Positions 42,439 through 48,104 of a stretch of DNA of 64,000 bases are shown one piece after another. The DNA is taken from NCBI RefSeq assembly GCF_030604785.1, contig NZ_JAUVVF010000003.1, positions 62,001 to 126,000 of the forward strand. The letters are read 5' to 3'. Positions within the stretch are counted from its first letter, which is position 1. Each line of letters starts with the position of its first letter. The translations under genes and the position numbers were made by a program. This stretch comes from Paracoccus sp. (in: a-proteobacteria) (GTDB taxonomy: Bacteria > Pseudomonadota > Alphaproteobacteria > Rhodobacterales > Rhodobacteraceae). The notes below the pieces were generated by a model. The model was given only the letters and a program-made list of their open reading frames with translations. It had not been told where the DNA came from and made no database searches.

Positions 42439-43350
42439 TCAGACAGGCATCTCATACGCCCAGGGCGGGTTCGCGCCGGGCCGCGAGACGGTGATCGCGG
42501 CGGCCTGTGCGCCAAGGGTCAGCGCCGCGCGGATCTGGTCGGGGCTGATTGCCGCCAGCGCGTCTTTCGACAGCAATCCCTGCCGTTCCAGAGAGGCCAG
42601 CACGCCCGCATTGAACGTGTCGCCCGCGCCGATCGTGTCGGCCACTTCGGTCCGCACGGCGGGCGCGTCGACCGTCTCGCCGGACCAGAGCGCGCGCGCC
42701 CCGGCCTCGCCGCCCGTCTGAAGGACCAGCTTCGGCCCCGAGGCCAGGATGCGCCGCGCGCCCTCTTCGGGCGAGAGCTCGGGATAGAGCCATTCCAGAT
42801 CATCCGCCGACATCTTGACGATATCCGCCATCGGCAGCAGCCGCGACAGGCGGGCGCGATAGGCGTCCGCGTCCTTGATGAAGAAGGGCCGGATATTGGG
42901 GTCGATCATCACCGGCAGGCGCGCGTGATGGGCGGCGACCAGCCCCTCGACCGTCGCGCCGCAGGGATCGGGGACGAGGCTGATCCCGCCCGCGAACAAG
43001 GCCGTGACGCTGTCGGGCAGGGGGGCGATATCCTCGGGTCGCAGCATCCGCCCCGCCGAGCCCTCATCATAGAACGAATAGCGCGCCTCGCCATGGGTCA
43101 GCGTCACCAGCGCCAGCGTCGTCAGGCGGTCGGTGCGCGGGCAGAGATCGGTGTTCACGCCCGCCTCGGCCAAGGGCGCCATGATCTGCGCGCCGAACGG
43201 GTCGGTGCTGATCGGCCACAGATAGCCCGTCTCGATGCCCAGACGGCCAAGCGCAATCGCCGTGTTGTAGACCGCGCCGCCGGCCAGCGGACGGAAGACA
43301 CCGTCCTGCGGCACCATGTCGATCAGCGATTCGCCTGCACAAAGGATCAT
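42439..43350 (-). CDS. PfkB-family carbohydrate kinase (fructokinase-like)
   Basis: This 303-residue cytoplasmic kinase phosphorylates a sugar with ATP. Signatures are PLAGGAVYNTAIALGRLG (about 22-39) near the N-terminus, which binds the sugar, and DTIGAGDTFNAGVLASL (about 240-256), where the Asp in GAGD is the catalytic base. The length fits fructokinases. No sugar transporter or regulator lies next to it, so the natural sugar is uncertain. It starts at an ATG (43350) and is separated by 21 bases from the zinc-ribbon gene, and may be transcribed with it. Confidence 0.85.
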   Translation of the reverse strand: MILCAGESLIDMVPQDGVFRPLAGGAVYNTAIALGRLGIETGYLWPISTDPFGAQIMAPLAEAGVNTDLCPRTDRLTTLALVTLTHGEARYSFYDEGSAGRMLRPEDIAPLPDSVTALFAGGISLVPDPCGATVEGLVAAHHARLPVMIDPNIRPFFIKDADAYRARLSRLLPMADIVKMSADDLEWLYPELSPEEGARRILASGPKLVLQTGGEAGARALWSGETVDAPAVRTEVADTIGAGDTFNAGVLASLERQGLLSKDALAAISPDQIRAALTLGAQAAAITVSRPGANPPWAYEMPV

Positions 43351-43371: not shown

Positions 43372-44538
43372 TCACTGGCTCAGATACAGGAAAGCCGCTA
43401 GCGCTACCAGCGCAACGGCGACGGCGGCACCGATTTTCCAGACCGACCAGGGCCGTTCGCCCATGACCTTGCCGGTCTGGCCGTTCACGACGAAACGGTA
43501 GCTCTTGCCGTTGTAGCGATAGGCGGCCGACCAGATCGGTAGCATGATATGCTTGAAGGTCTCGTTGGCGAAGCGGCTGTCCACGTGATCGACGCGCTGC
43601 TCGTCGCCGCCGATGGTCCGGCGCACGTCCTGATGGATGATCTGGGCCATCTGGCGGCGCGCGGCCTCGTGGCCGTCGGCCAGGGCGACGGTATAGCCCT
43701 CGGCCTCGAAGCCCGACAGGAAGGCCGGGTCATAATCCGCCAGCGACGACAGATCCCATGGCTTCATCGCCTCGGCAAAGCGGGGCGGCAAGGCGGTCGA
43801 TGCCGGGATCAGCACGTCGTTGAACTGCCGCGCGACCTGGCCCGAGACGGGCGTCCAGCGGATGCGCCGTTCCTGCCGGCTGACCATCTGGCTCTTGCCG
43901 TTCACTGTCTGCATGCTCTGGACCGTGACGTAATAGGCGTCGCCCCGCTGACCCCGGTAGCTTGAGCTCGTATCGGAATCGAAGGTCCAGAAGGGCGAAT
44001 AGACCCCGGTCAGCCGCCGGTCCTTGCGCGCATAGGCGGTCAGCGCGGACGGCGCGAACCACAGGCTGCCCAGCCAGCGTTTCATCGCGGCGCGGGCCTC
44101 GGCCTCGGTCAGGACGAAAGGCAGGACGCCCTGCGGCTTGATGCGTCGGGTGGGGCCGGTATCGGTGACGACCGGCGTCGCGCAGAACGGGCAGGCACTG
44201 GCATGGTGGCTGTCATCCAGATCGACCTGCGCGCCGCAATTGGGGCAGGACAGGGTCCGCACCGTCTGGGCGATGTCCTCGGCCCCGCGATAGAGGTCCA
44301 GCCCCTTTTCCAGCGGGATCTCCCGCAGGGCCAAGCCTTGCGCTCGCGGCCCCTCGGCCCATTGCAGGGCAGCCTCGTCGCTGCTGTCGTCGGATTGGCG
44401 GCCCGGCGCGCGGGCGGGGCCGGGGCCGATCTGCTGGCGGTGGCCGCACCAGTCGCAGACAAGGCTCTGCTGGCCGGGACGAAAGGCGAGGCTCGCCCCG
44501 CATTGTCCGCAGGGAAAGCGATGTTCGGCAGGGATCAT
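43372..44538 (-). CDS. zinc-ribbon protein with C-terminal membrane helix
   Basis: The 388-residue protein starts with two zinc ribbons: CGQCGAS...CDWCGH (about 10-32) and CPNCGAQ...CPFC (about 98-118). A large central domain of beta strands, with WTFDSDTSSSYRGQRGDAYYVT, follows. One transmembrane helix lies at the very C-terminus (about 368-386), so the bulk would face the cytoplasm. It matches the class of zinc-ribbon proteins often encoded beside SPFH proteins; the B. subtilis counterpart would be YdjG-like. The start is 7 bases from the end of the SPFH gene. Function is inferred only from this link. Confidence 0.75.
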   Translation of the reverse strand: MIPAEHRFPCGQCGASLAFRPGQQSLVCDWCGHRQQIGPGPARAPGRQSDDSSDEAALQWAEGPRAQGLALREIPLEKGLDLYRGAEDIAQTVRTLSCPNCGAQVDLDDSHHASACPFCATPVVTDTGPTRRIKPQGVLPFVLTEAEARAAMKRWLGSLWFAPSALTAYARKDRRLTGVYSPFWTFDSDTSSSYRGQRGDAYYVTVQSMQTVNGKSQMVSRQERRIRWTPVSGQVARQFNDVLIPASTALPPRFAEAMKPWDLSSLADYDPAFLSGFEAEGYTVALADGHEAARRQMAQIIHQDVRRTIGGDEQRVDHVDSRFANETFKHIMLPIWSAAYRYNGKSYRFVVNGQTGKVMGERPWSVWKIGAAVAVALVALAAFLYLSQ

Positions 44539-44545
44539 CCGGGCC

Positions 44546-45658
44546 TCAGCGCGGCAGCGGCGGAGGCGTCGCGCCGAAGATCGAGGCCAGGGCCGCGACC
44601 TGACCGGCCTCGACCCAGCCGTCCTGACCCTCGGTCCAGACCAGCGTCTCGCGCGTCAGGCTGCCATCGGCCACAAGGCGCGGCAGGTCGGATTGCGCGA
44701 ATGGCCCCGAAGCCGCGCCGTCGATCGCCACATGCCATTCGGGCGCGCGGCCGGGCAGGGGCGGAGGCGCTGCGGGGGCCTGCTGCTGCGCGGGTTGGGG
44801 CGCCGCGCCCCAGGGACCGGGGCGCGAGGCCATGCCCATCGCCGCGCCCATCGCGGCGCCGAAGCCCGCGCCCGCGCCACCTTCGTTCTTCGAGGCGTTC
44901 AGCATCGCCTCCGAGGCCGCATATTGGCCGAACCGGTCCAGATCGCCGATGATCCCCATGCTGGTGCGCTTGTCCAGCATCGCCTCGACCTCGGAGGGCA
45001 GGCTGACATTCTCGATGTAGAATTCGGGCAGGGTCAGGCCATAACCCTCGATCACGGGGGCGATGGCCCGCGCGACAAGGCCCGAAAGCTGGTCGGTATT
45101 GGCCGCCATGTCCAGAACCGGAATGTTCGAGCCCGCGATGGCACGCGAGAATTCCTGCACGATCACGTTGCGGATCTGGTCGGCGATCTCGTCGCGGCTG
45201 AACTCGCCCTGGGTGCCGACGATCTCGGACATGAAGCGGGCGGGATCGGTCACGCGCATCGCGTAGGTGCCGAAGGCGCGCAGGCGCACCGGCCCGAATT
45301 CGGGGTCGCGCGCGATGATCGGATTGCGCGTGCCCCATTTCAGGTCGTTGAACCGGGTCGTGTTGATGAAATAGACCTCGGACTTGAAGGGGCTGCGGAA
45401 GCCGAGATCCCAGTGGCGCAGCCGCGTCATCACCGGAATGTTGTTGGTTTCCAGCAGATAGAGACCGGGGCCGAAGACATCGGCCAATTGCCCCTCATGG
45501 ACGAAGACCGCGGCCTGCCCTTCGCGGACGGTCAGCTTGGCGCCGTATTTGATGGCCCGTCCGACGGTCGGGAAGCGGTAGACCATCGTGTCGCGGTTAT
45601 CCTCGACCCATTCGATGACCTCGATGAACTCTCCGCCAAGGATGTTCAGGATGGACAT
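44546..45658 (-). CDS. SPFH domain protein with C-terminal GYF_2 domain
   Basis: The 370-residue protein has an SPFH/YdjI-like domain (about 20-245; AKLTVREGQAAVFVHEGQLADVFGPGLYLL) without a clear N-terminal signal. A flexible Gly/Ala/Pro/Gln linker follows (about 262-310), and a C-terminal GYF_2 domain opens WHVAIDGAASGPFAQSDL (about 317-334). SPFH proteins build oligomeric scaffolds at membranes; GYF_2 domains bind Pro-rich or membrane-related partners. I start at the ATG at 45658 (MSILNILGGEF), not the upstream in-frame ATG. The order TelA, lipoprotein, SPFH, zinc ribbon suggests one functional set. Confidence 0.82.
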   Translation of the reverse strand: MSILNILGGEFIEVIEWVEDNRDTMVYRFPTVGRAIKYGAKLTVREGQAAVFVHEGQLADVFGPGLYLLETNNIPVMTRLRHWDLGFRSPFKSEVYFINTTRFNDLKWGTRNPIIARDPEFGPVRLRAFGTYAMRVTDPARFMSEIVGTQGEFSRDEIADQIRNVIVQEFSRAIAGSNIPVLDMAANTDQLSGLVARAIAPVIEGYGLTLPEFYIENVSLPSEVEAMLDKRTSMGIIGDLDRFGQYAASEAMLNASKNEGGAGAGFGAAMGAAMGMASRPGPWGAAPQPAQQQAPAAPPPLPGRAPEWHVAIDGAASGPFAQSDLPRLVADGSLTRETLVWTEGQDGWVEAGQVAALASIFGATPPPLPR

Positions 45659-45741
45659 GGCGCAACCCCCTGCTTCCGCATTCCGCTGCATCCTGTATGA
45701 CCCCGCGCAGGCCGCGGATCAAGCCAGAGGGGCCGGATTGT

Positions 45742-46764
45742 TCAGGCGGGCCGGGCCAGCAATTCGGCGGCGATCCGGCGCAGTATCGGCAGGGCCTCGG
45801 CTTCGGTCATGCCGAAGCGCAGGCGCGGATCATAGAGCATCCGCAGCAACAGCTCGTCATGCCGCGTCAGCAGCGCGAATTCCTCGTCATCGTTGAAGAT
45901 CGAGGGGCGCGCGGCCGGGCTGTCATTGGCCAGGCCCATCGCCTGGGCCAGTTCCTCGTGGATGCAGGACTGGCGCAGAAGCGGCGGCAACTCCGCCCGG
46001 ATCACGGCGACAGCACGGGCATAGACGGGGCTCTCGCCCTGCGAATAGGCGAAGACCGTGCAGGCGATGGCGGGGGGCAGGTCGGTCAGGATCGCGACGT
46101 CATCGGCGGGAATGCCGGGAACCAGTTCGCTCAGGCGCGGCCCGATCTGACGACGCTCGTCCTCGGAGAGGATCAGCACCACGACATTGCCGCCCCCTTG
46201 CGAGGCCAGCCGCACCGGGTGGCCGCTGGCCTGCGACAGGCGCGCGGCGTAGTCCGCGATCTCGGCCCGCCACGCGCGCTGGCGTCCCAGATCGACCGAG
46301 GCGCCGAATTCGGGCTGAAACTGCACCGGCTCGGACCAGCGGCGCAGGGGGGCGGGGCGTTCCTCGGCCACCAGCGCGCCATCGCGGCGGGTATATTCGT
46401 CGCGCAGCGCGATCCGGACGAAGTTCTGCGCCAGTGTCTCGGCGTCGAAGGGCGCGTCGGCCGGATCGCGGTCCCGCCTCAGCCTGCCCTGGGCCAGCAG
46501 CGAGCGCTCCATCCGGGCATAGTAGTCGCGCTGCGTCTGGCTGGCATCGCTGGCCTGCGCCGAGGCGAGGATCGCGGCGCGGTTGGCCGCGCGGTTCCGT
46601 TCGGCGCGGGCCTCGCGCAGCTGGGCCTGACGCTCGGCCTCGGTCAAGGCGGGGGCTTCGGGCGCGGGCGGCGGGGGCGCGGTCTCGGCCGGGATGTCGG
46701 CAGGCTCGCAGGCGGCAAGGATCAGTGCCGCCGCCAGCCCGGTCATGGCCCGCGCCGCGATCAT
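45742..46764 (-). CDS. DUF2927 lipoprotein
   Basis: This 340-residue predicted lipoprotein has a signal ending in LAAC (Cys19) and an Ala/Glu/Arg-rich helical segment (about 40-85, possible coiled coil). The C-terminal DUF2927 domain (about 110-325) contains SCIHEELAQAMGLANDS (about 268-284), in which HEE resembles a zincin helix with Asn/Asp downstream. Whether it is an active peptidase is not known. Its ATG overlaps the stop of the telA-like gene (TGATG), so the two are translationally linked. DUF2927 proteins are common in Rhodobacteraceae and lack an assigned function. Confidence 0.75.
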   Translation of the reverse strand: MIAARAMTGLAAALILAACEPADIPAETAPPPPAPEAPALTEAERQAQLREARAERNRAANRAAILASAQASDASQTQRDYYARMERSLLAQGRLRRDRDPADAPFDAETLAQNFVRIALRDEYTRRDGALVAEERPAPLRRWSEPVQFQPEFGASVDLGRQRAWRAEIADYAARLSQASGHPVRLASQGGGNVVVLILSEDERRQIGPRLSELVPGIPADDVAILTDLPPAIACTVFAYSQGESPVYARAVAVIRAELPPLLRQSCIHEELAQAMGLANDSPAARPSIFNDDEEFALLTRHDELLLRMLYDPRLRFGMTEAEALPILRRIAAELLARPA

Positions 46765-47927
46765 CAGGCCGCCCCTTGGGTCCGCGACCGGGCCGAGGCC
46801 AGGGCATCGCGCAATTCGGTCTCCATCCGCTGCAGCTCGGTCTCGGCGGCGGCGCGGCGGGTCCGGCCCTCATCGGCGATGCGCAGGCTGTCCTCGATCG
46901 TGGCGATCAGCTGGGCATTGGCGGTGCTGACGGCCTCGATGTCGAAGACGCCGCGCTCGGCTTCGGTCCGGATCTGGGCATTGGCCTGACGCAGATTGTC
47001 GGCATTGCGCGTCAGCAATTCATTGGTCAGGTCGGTGGCGGCCTTGACGCTGCGCGCGGCCTCGGCGCTGCGCTGGATCGTGACGGCCTGGGCCAGCTGC
47101 GTCTCCCACAGAGGCACGGTGTTCACCAGCGTCGAGTTGATGCGCGTGACCAGCGACTTGTCGTTTTCCTGCACCAGCCGGATCGAGGGCAGAGACTGCA
47201 TCGTCACCTGCCGCGTCAGCTTGAGGTCATGGACGCGCCGCTCAAGATCGTCGCGCAAGGTCCTGAGATCGCGCAATTCCTGCGCGCCCATCACCTGCTG
47301 TTCCTCGGGCGTCCCCTTCAGCGCGGCCTCGCGTTCGGGAATGATGCGGCTGTCCAGCTCGCGCAGCTTTTCCTCGCCCGCGGCGATATACAGCGCAAGC
47401 TCGTCATAGAAGTTCAGCGTTTTCTCATAAAGCAGGTCCAGAGACTTGATGTCCTTCAGCAATTTCTGCTCGTGCGCTTCCAGTTCGGCGGTGATCCGGT
47501 CAATCTGGGTCTGGACCTGTTCGTAATTGGCGACGAATTTCGCGAAGGGCGCCGACCGGCCCAGCAGCTTTTCCCACAGGCTGCGCTCGCGGCGCATGTC
47601 GAGTTCGCTGGTGGAGAAGCCGCGGATCGTGGTGACCACCGCGCGCAGGCTGTCGCCGGCGGGGCCCACATCCTTGGTCTTGACGTCGTTCAGCATGGCC
47701 TGGCTGATCTGTTGCAGATCGGCCTGGGCGCGGGTGCCGAAGCGCAGGATGGAATTGCTGTCCTTCAGGTCGATCTCGTCCATGCGGCGCTGGATCTCGG
47801 CGCGGGTGGCCGGATCGGCAGCCGAGGCGCTGACCGGGGTGTCATCGGGCTGGGGCAGGCTGGTCTGGGTCAGCGCGTCGATCTGGGCCTGTGCGGCCAG
47901 CGCGCGGCTGCGGGTCTCGTCGGTCAT
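46764..47927 (-). CDS. TelA family (toxic anion resistance) protein
   Basis: The 387-residue, mainly helical protein matches the TelA/KlaA family (PF05816). Recognisable segments are RGFSTSELDMRRERSLWEKLLGRS (about 98-121), FYDELALYIAAGEEKLRELD (about 173-192) and LVQENDKSLVTRINSTLVNTVPLWETQLAQAV (about 248-280). Members were linked to tellurite resistance and to membrane-stress tolerance in several bacteria; direct tellurite action is unproven. I use the ATG at 47927, seven bases after a GGGGG run, rather than 47933 or 47966. It heads the set TelA, DUF2927, SPFH, zinc ribbon. Confidence 0.85.
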   Translation of the reverse strand: MTDETRSRALAAQAQIDALTQTSLPQPDDTPVSASAADPATRAEIQRRMDEIDLKDSNSILRFGTRAQADLQQISQAMLNDVKTKDVGPAGDSLRAVVTTIRGFSTSELDMRRERSLWEKLLGRSAPFAKFVANYEQVQTQIDRITAELEAHEQKLLKDIKSLDLLYEKTLNFYDELALYIAAGEEKLRELDSRIIPEREAALKGTPEEQQVMGAQELRDLRTLRDDLERRVHDLKLTRQVTMQSLPSIRLVQENDKSLVTRINSTLVNTVPLWETQLAQAVTIQRSAEAARSVKAATDLTNELLTRNADNLRQANAQIRTEAERGVFDIEAVSTANAQLIATIEDSLRIADEGRTRRAAAETELQRMETELRDALASARSRTQGAA

Positions 47928-48048
47928 CTGCATTCCCCCGGTCTGCGGCAAAAGCAACCATGCCATTCACACGTTCACCATATGGCGAATCTCTGCCGGT
48001 TCAACGGGACACGCGCCCGAAAGTTTCTCTGCGGCGCGGCGCGAATGG

Positions 48049-48077
48049 AAAAAGGGCGGGCCTGTTGCGGCCCGCCC
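48049..48077 (-). terminator. fadJ terminator
   Basis: Read on the minus strand, a 9-bp perfect GC stem GGGCGGGCC with a 6-base loop and complement runs into TTTTT. It lies 28 bases beyond the stop codon at 48105. Confidence 0.85.
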
Positions 48078-48104
48078 TCATCGTTGTGATGCATCCGGTG
48101 CGGA

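Follow-up and report, generated by a model that had tools for sequence, protein, structure and literature searches.

Four neighboring genes on the minus strand of a Paracoccus sp. genome encode a TelA-family protein, a DUF2927 lipoprotein, an SPFH scaffold with a C-terminal GYF_2 domain, and a two-zinc-ribbon protein with a C-terminal membrane anchor. They lie in a stretch of 64,000 nucleotides that was analyzed as a whole (the window; contig NZ_JAUVVF010000003.1, positions 62,001 to 126,000). Based on a comparative genomic analysis, we propose, with a probability of about 0.55, that this gene set is the form taken in Rhodobacteraceae by a membrane-protection module of Alphaproteobacteria, of the YdjI/YdjG type known from Bacillus subtilis but with TelA and XpaC in the place of PspA. 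The core of the module in Alphaproteobacteria is XpaC-TelA-SPFH(GYF_2)-zinc ribbon; the four-gene order of the source genome is most simply a derived version, with XpaC at a different site. The four genes, in window coordinates, are as follows.

46764-47927, minus strand: TelA (toxic anion resistance family, YaaN-like); PF05816, E 5.9e-106; long helical protein, no transmembrane (TM) segment
45742-46764, minus strand: DUF2927 lipoprotein with a predicted matrixin-like fold; DUF2927, E 6.9e-61
44546-45658, minus strand: SPFH scaffold with a C-terminal GYF_2 domain, no TM segment; Band_7_1 (PF13421), E 2.4e-97; GYF_2, E 4.9e-17
43372-44538, minus strand: two-zinc-ribbon protein, conserved domain of ~230 residues and C-terminal TM anchor; two CxxC pairs plus a hydrophobic helix

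The initial annotation had described these genes as a possible envelope-stress system, and the genes, strand and spacing that it gave were confirmed. It had also expected at least two coupled pairs. The TelA and DUF2927 genes overlap by one base (TGATG) and the SPFH gene is separated from the zinc-ribbon gene by 7 nt, in agreement with this expectation, but coupling of DUF2927 and SPFH is not evident in the source genome, given the 83 bp gap between them. The telA reading frame stays open further upstream to an ATG at 47966.

Conservation of the Gene Set in Rhodobacteraceae

To offset the bias of a locus sample chosen through TelA (80 of 581 TelA search matches), we surveyed 100 Rhodobacteraceae genomes from 99 genera, drawn by the search tool. 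TelA and XpaC were both found over cut-off in the same 89 genomes, and neither was found in the remaining 11. TelA and a strong SPFH match occurred together in 88 genomes, with TelA alone in one and neither in 11. The zinc-ribbon protein, present in 88 genomes overall, accompanied TelA in 86, with TelA alone in three, the zinc-ribbon protein alone in two, and neither in nine. The co-occurrence rests on these counts, which are not corrected for relatedness, and not on the Fisher p-values, which ignore it. The 11 genomes lacking TelA have no intact SPFH gene of this kind, and two of them carry SPFH fragments at contig starts. Both genomes with a zinc-ribbon gene and no TelA (G320 and G389) show this gene with a cut SPFH gene at a contig start; they are probably assembly truncations in which TelA may have been lost to the assembly, and they were kept as discordant in the counts. 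Nine genomes of different genera, at least one of them an incomplete assembly, lack TelA, strong SPFH, zinc ribbon and XpaC over cut-off.

Genes were scored as linked when they shared a strand, lay no more than 8 kb apart and kept an unvarying order. By this measure, XpaC and TelA are linked in 87 of 89 genomes, TelA and SPFH in 81 of 88, SPFH and the zinc-ribbon gene in 82 of 85, and TelA and the zinc-ribbon gene in 76 of 86. Unlinked SPFH and zinc-ribbon genes were mostly on a different contig. The TelA-SPFH order was found again in 81 genomes, which belong almost without exception to different genera, and is conserved beyond chance.

The placement of DUF2927 was assessed in the 80 TelA-chosen loci. 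It directly follows TelA in 78 of them, and the other two (L027 and L029) stop at a contig edge; the spacing between the two genes, as computed by script, is -4 to +20 nt in 54 of the 77 loci in which both are delimited. Among the 41 loci outside Paracoccus with delimited XpaC and TelA genes (one of the 41 being a script artefact), XpaC immediately precedes TelA, at a distance of 15-36 nt in 29. The two exceptions to XpaC-TelA linkage in the survey are its two Paracoccus genomes. In the source genome, XpaC is encoded on another contig (C10, locus L001, 1363-2334, minus strand), not adjacent to TelA. By our own reading of the flanking genes, it sits there between truA-like and lpxK-like genes, overlapping the former by one base; in the second Paracoccus (G175), XpaC is ~200 kb from TelA. 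The initial annotation identified a conserved unit, but it overlooked the most tightly linked partner, XpaC, and included DUF2927, which most simply is a later addition outside the core.

The Core Gene Set Outside Rhodobacteraceae

Across the class Alphaproteobacteria, TelA matched in 34 of 337 genomes (30 over cut-off), 29 of them outside Rhodobacteraceae. We read 23 TelA places in 22 of these 29 genomes, skipping three genomes over and four below cut-off and a second place in one genome (G449). Six of the 23 places, under four family labels, show a contiguous XpaC-TelA-SPFH-zinc ribbon string with a GYF_2-like SPFH end, which Pfam confirmed as GYF_2 in one of them (L128); none of the six has a DUF2927 match. 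Within Rhodobacteraceae, the four core genes likewise occur with no DUF2927 in one genome (G205, locus L144). A tree of 32 TelA proteins places the TelA of this genome outside the 15 other rows of the family, with support of 97/95. All SPFH-linked TelA proteins fall into one clade of 23 rows with support of 100/100. This clade also contains L135, a long branch with no SPFH seen at its locus, and L072; the tree has long branches, and the 22 rows labelled as linked include L072, whose locus is without SPFH. Since the core occurs without DUF2927 both in other families and in the outlying L144 locus, DUF2927 would most simply have joined the operon within Rhodobacteraceae.

Properties of the Encoded Proteins

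TelA/YaaN proteins form a stress-linked family with no agreed biochemical role and are usually labelled as tellurite resistance proteins. A simple hydropathy scan detects no TM-like stretch in any of the 80 TelA homologues, and two to six such stretches in 40 of 41 XpaC proteins. The TelA structure model, of moderate confidence (mean predicted local distance difference test score 73.8), contains long helices at residues 127-205, 208-324 and 330-383. A sequence search against solved structures gave no match for TelA at E 0.001, and weak cytochrome b562 rows in it were dismissed as coiled-coil noise.

The SPFH protein shows a GYF-like pattern in all 67 homologues and no TM-like stretch in 66 of them, while its zinc-ribbon partner has a C-terminal TM-like stretch in 67 of 67 and at least four CxxC motifs in 64 of 67. 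The zinc-ribbon protein matched no Pfam family over its cut-off and no solved structure at E 0.001. The GYF region of the SPFH protein matches the gliding-motility protein GltJ/AglX (2.1e-05 in the structure-sequence search, 7.2e-06 in NCBIfam), on which an open-licence literature search for GltJ and GYF found nothing; a single-strand-binding-protein row (0.0068) was rejected as low-complexity noise. The GYF_2 domain is flanked by conserved proline-rich PPPLP segments, which may act as a ligand within the molecule or for a neighbor, and the consensus shows a conserved PPPxP tail after it. Because GYF domains bind proline-rich peptides, it is possible that the SPFH protein self-assembles by means of this tail.

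The DUF2927 protein of the window has a lipobox-like LAAC sequence, and a permissive pattern finds a lipobox-like match within the first 50 residues of 72 of 77 operon homologues. A structure model predicts a matrixin-like fold, which the protein would share with matrixins and the catalytic domains of matrix metalloproteinases. The zinc-binding motif of matrixins is HExxHxxGxxH. DUF2927 has EExxQxxGxxND instead, set against the matrixin motif by eye and conserved in 19 of the 19 best-scoring family loci read and in 75 of 77 operon proteins. DUF2927 is therefore probably a pseudoprotease without zinc ligands, and an active zinc protease was rejected on the basis of the motif. The initial annotation had proposed a lipoprotein with a zincin-like HEE motif; the fold is predicted to be matrixin-like, but the HEE is no zinc-protease motif, the conserved residues not being those of a zinc-binding HExxH. 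DUF2927 had no match at E 0.001 among solved structures, occurs in 45 of the 299 Pseudomonadota genomes that were sampled, and returned no paper in an open-licence literature search. The predicted fold without its zinc motif provides this domain with a fold-based hypothesis.

Comparison with PspA-Based and XpaC-TelA Systems

PspA (PF04012) has no match in the operon or in the whole source genome, from which it follows that TelA can stand in the place of PspA. In the family survey, PspA was over cut-off in 21 of 100 genomes, comprising 19 of the 89 with TelA and two of the 11 without, and below cut-off in 70 of the 89 TelA genomes. By eye, 15 of the 19 PspA genes are on other contigs than the TelA operon and four are on the same contig more than 1 Mb away. 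The TelA module thus usually occurs in cells without PspA.

In B. subtilis, PspA foci require the SPFH protein YdjI, and both in turn require YdjG and YdjH (PMC8581546, excerpt). YdjG combines two zinc ribbons with a YpeB-related domain and a TM segment, and a zinc ribbon is also present at the C-terminus of the band-7 protein (PMC11237479, excerpt). The Paracoccus set shares with pspA-ydjGHI a soluble SPFH protein of the Band_7_1 type, which a control search also finds in B. subtilis, as well as the presence of an effector gene beside it in the operon (PMC8581546 and PMC11237479, excerpts). At the level of overall architecture, its zinc-ribbon protein is like YdjG, with two zinc ribbons, a further domain and a TM segment. 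In contrast, TelA and XpaC are found here instead of PspA, GYF_2 replaces the zinc ribbon at the SPFH C-terminus, no TPM match corresponding to YdjH was detected among the four genes, pfkB and XpaC (a genome-wide search was not made), and a DUF2927 lipoprotein is present in addition. The gene set may work like pspA-ydjGHI, but as it lacks PspA, YdjH and a zinc ribbon on the SPFH protein, it does not belong to that system. The resemblance to YdjI and YdjG noted in the initial annotation accordingly extends to the combination of SPFH with a tail-anchored double zinc ribbon, but not to the SPFH tail or to YdjH.

The arrangement of XpaC beside TelA in 87 of 89 family genomes is also that of the xpaC-yaaN pair of B. 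subtilis and lmo1966-lmo1967 of Listeria; the source genome encodes TelA, but its XpaC gene does not lie next to it on the upstream side. The sigma-W regulon of B. subtilis lists xpaC-yaaN, yceC-H and pspA-ydjGHI, and the xpaC-yaaN operon as listed in this table contains no SPFH or zinc-ribbon gene, unlike the present set (PMC3498285, excerpt). In Lactococcus lactis, the transcriptome table of a study on membrane-protein overproduction and CesSR gives raised values for both an XpaC-like gene (10.3) and telA1 (3.44) (PMC3139573, excerpt), and mutation of telA in Listeria is reported to raise sensitivity to nisin 4-fold and to tellurite 2-fold (PMC12791056, excerpt). TelA and XpaC appear nowhere in the main text of two surveys of phage shock protein systems, and no paper that describes either of them together with SPFH came up in our open-licence literature search, in which TelA-SPFH alone was not searched as a pair.

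Proposed Function and Alternative Explanations

We propose that the tail-anchored zinc-ribbon protein would hold the soluble SPFH-GYF_2 protein at the inner membrane, as YdjG and YdjH hold YdjI in B. subtilis; a soluble SPFH protein together with a C-terminal TM segment on the zinc-ribbon protein is the arrangement in which YdjI needs YdjG and YdjH to reach the membrane (PMC8581546, excerpt). At sites where the membrane is stressed or fluid, the SPFH scaffold would then concentrate TelA, as a long helical cytosolic effector, together with XpaC as its partner in the membrane, and TelA would fill the role that PspA has in pspA-ydjGHI. The DUF2927 lipoprotein, the Rhodobacteraceae addition, would face the periplasm or the outer membrane and would probably be a binding or sensing part, not a protease. 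A fixed operon of TelA with SPFH and a tail-anchored partner, in a family in which just 21% of the surveyed genomes have PspA over cut-off, would give TelA a concrete role in membrane recruitment. In favor of this proposal are the near all-or-none distribution in the 100 genomes, the constant order, the same core outside the family, the single clade of SPFH-linked TelA proteins, the lack of a PspA match in the source genome and, over cut-off, in 70 of the 89 TelA genomes, and the envelope-stress links of XpaC and TelA in B. subtilis, L. lactis and Listeria (PMC3498285, PMC3139573 and PMC12791056, excerpts).

Several observations weigh against it. No SPFH gene was seen at 16 of the 23 non-family TelA places, and one more place is cut by a contig end after XpaC-TelA; at L138-L141 and L148, the narrow TelA profile missed TelA proteins that Pfam finds, and XpaC could likewise be missed there. 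A Foldseek search with the moderate-confidence TelA model gave no significant match (best E 0.052), with no PspA or ESCRT-III chain among the matches listed. Mutual exclusion of TelA and PspA is rejected by the 19 genomes that have both, so that the substitution suggested in the initial annotation can hold for the source genome, which lacks a PspA match, but not as a rule of exclusion. Within the family, the only hint of a phenotype comes from a review that, citing O'Gara 1997, counts the chromosomal R. sphaeroides telA gene among the determinants of tellurite resistance (PMC6955997, excerpt), and it favors a different explanation. An intact SPFH-zinc ribbon pair is missing from six TelA-DUF2927 loci of Paracoccus or roseobacters (L007, L008, L010, L011, L065 and L072), and unrelated genes intervene between SPFH and the zinc-ribbon gene in several roseobacters. 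Conversely, plasmids of Vibrio, Comamonas and Tsukamurella carry the same order of SPFH followed by a zinc-ribbon homologue (E 2e-103 to 4e-73) with no TelA or XpaC annotated nearby (surroundings of six among 23 matching records read).

These last observations bear on the alternative that XpaC-TelA(-DUF2927) and SPFH-zinc ribbon are two separate modules, which share a transcript for dosage or regulation and form no joint complex. This agrees with the joint absence of the pair from the six loci, clearly by deletion in L010 and L065, where pfkB directly follows DUF2927, with the genes intervening between the modules in roseobacters, with the TelA places lacking SPFH, and with the separate B. subtilis loci for xpaC-yaaN and pspA-ydjGHI (PMC3498285, excerpt). 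On the other hand, a strong SPFH gene is kept in 88 of 89 TelA genomes, including seven where the two genes are unlinked or lie on separate contigs, the genomes without TelA also lack an intact SPFH gene of this kind, and the SPFH-linked TelA proteins form one clade. At L008 and L011 (P. spongiarum and P. salsus), the entire downstream flank differs, and a zinc-ribbon homologue is listed on a different contig from DUF2927; the gene has therefore moved rather than vanished, which weakens the two-module explanation. We consider this explanation unlikely, although one complex and two cooperating modules are both compatible with the six loci, the pair being deleted in two and at least the zinc-ribbon gene relocated in two.

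A dedicated tellurite or oxyanion resistance operon would explain the family name of TelA and, if the telA listed for R. sphaeroides, a relative in the same wider group, is the gene of this operon, also that listing (PMC6955997, excerpt). Pfam scans of TelA, DUF2927, SPFH, zinc ribbon, pfkB and XpaC revealed no reductase or transporter family, and Gram-positive TelA belongs to envelope-stress regulons, its loss having the larger effect on nisin (4-fold) than on tellurite (2-fold) sensitivity (PMC12791056, excerpt), so we regard such an operon as improbable. A housekeeping assembly for membrane microdomains or membrane-protein quality control, acting outside stress responses, is similarly improbable. 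SPFH proteins are known scaffolds, and the core is found almost throughout the family (TelA in 89 of 100 genomes), but its absence from nine genomes of different genera indicates that it is dispensable, and the Gram-positive regulon evidence is linked to stress (PMC3498285 and PMC3139573, excerpts).

Returning to the membrane-protection module, the plasmid pairs and the varied SPFH tails, with a GYF-like form in Vibrio (by eye), an HTH_17 domain in Comamonas and a double zinc ribbon in a Butyrivibrio SPFH protein, support an adaptor pair whose tails and partners can be exchanged. They also support the alternative of two modules on one transcript. The fixed TelA operon further suggests that SPFH-zinc ribbon pairs are general adaptors with exchangeable effectors. 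By a tentative and rather doubtful extension, TelA would represent a second, PspA-independent class of SPFH-recruited effector, with one scaffold-anchor pair serving PspA in Firmicutes and XpaC-TelA in Alphaproteobacteria as interchangeable effectors, with SPFH tails (zinc ribbon, GYF_2 or HTH) that can be swapped as well, and with the DUF2927 pseudoprotease of Rhodobacteraceae acting as a periplasmic sensor.

Neighboring Genes and Other Observations

Two further features flank the operon in the window.

42439-43350, minus strand: PfkB-family sugar kinase, 21 bp downstream of the zinc-ribbon gene; a frequent, inconstant neighbor
48052-48079, minus strand: terminator-like stem of 11 pairs between a fadJ-like gene and telA; consensus match only

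The PfkB gene is not supported as a core member, since its distance varies (a gap of 26 bp or less in 21 of 46 loci measured) and it is missing beside many loci; it is probably a passenger. The terminator-like stem after the fadJ-like gene suggests that telA opens its own transcript; the two terminator-like sites found in the region are no excess over the mean of 2.2 in shuffled sequences. Among the matches listed, the closest relatives of the Paracoccus TelA are those of P. nototheniae and P. hibiscisoli (84%).

In P. siganidrum (L010, 10322-10773), only short SPFH and zinc-ribbon remnants lie between DUF2927 and pfkB. Between SPFH and the zinc-ribbon gene, the roseobacter loci L054, L055, L062, L063, L070, L075-L077 and L081 encode small membrane proteins resembling cytochrome b561, one to three per locus, which end in the pattern ...WRH...ALRxMxPxxLH...; three longer ones match PF01292, one short one has no Pfam match, and the rest were recognized by eye. 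Genes in this position are lineage-specific and were rejected as core parts. A Novosphingobium plasmid (L152) shows a different set of SPFH partners, again with no annotated TelA: genes for DUF4178, DUF350, a polyamine aminopropyltransferase and speD come after a related SPFH gene. Phage-type portal, terminase and head-protease genes lie near the operon at 1000-4450 in L068 and L071, with PHROG matches in both; each of these types is found near the operon in eight of 39 Paracoccus loci, possibly as part of a gene-transfer-agent cluster.

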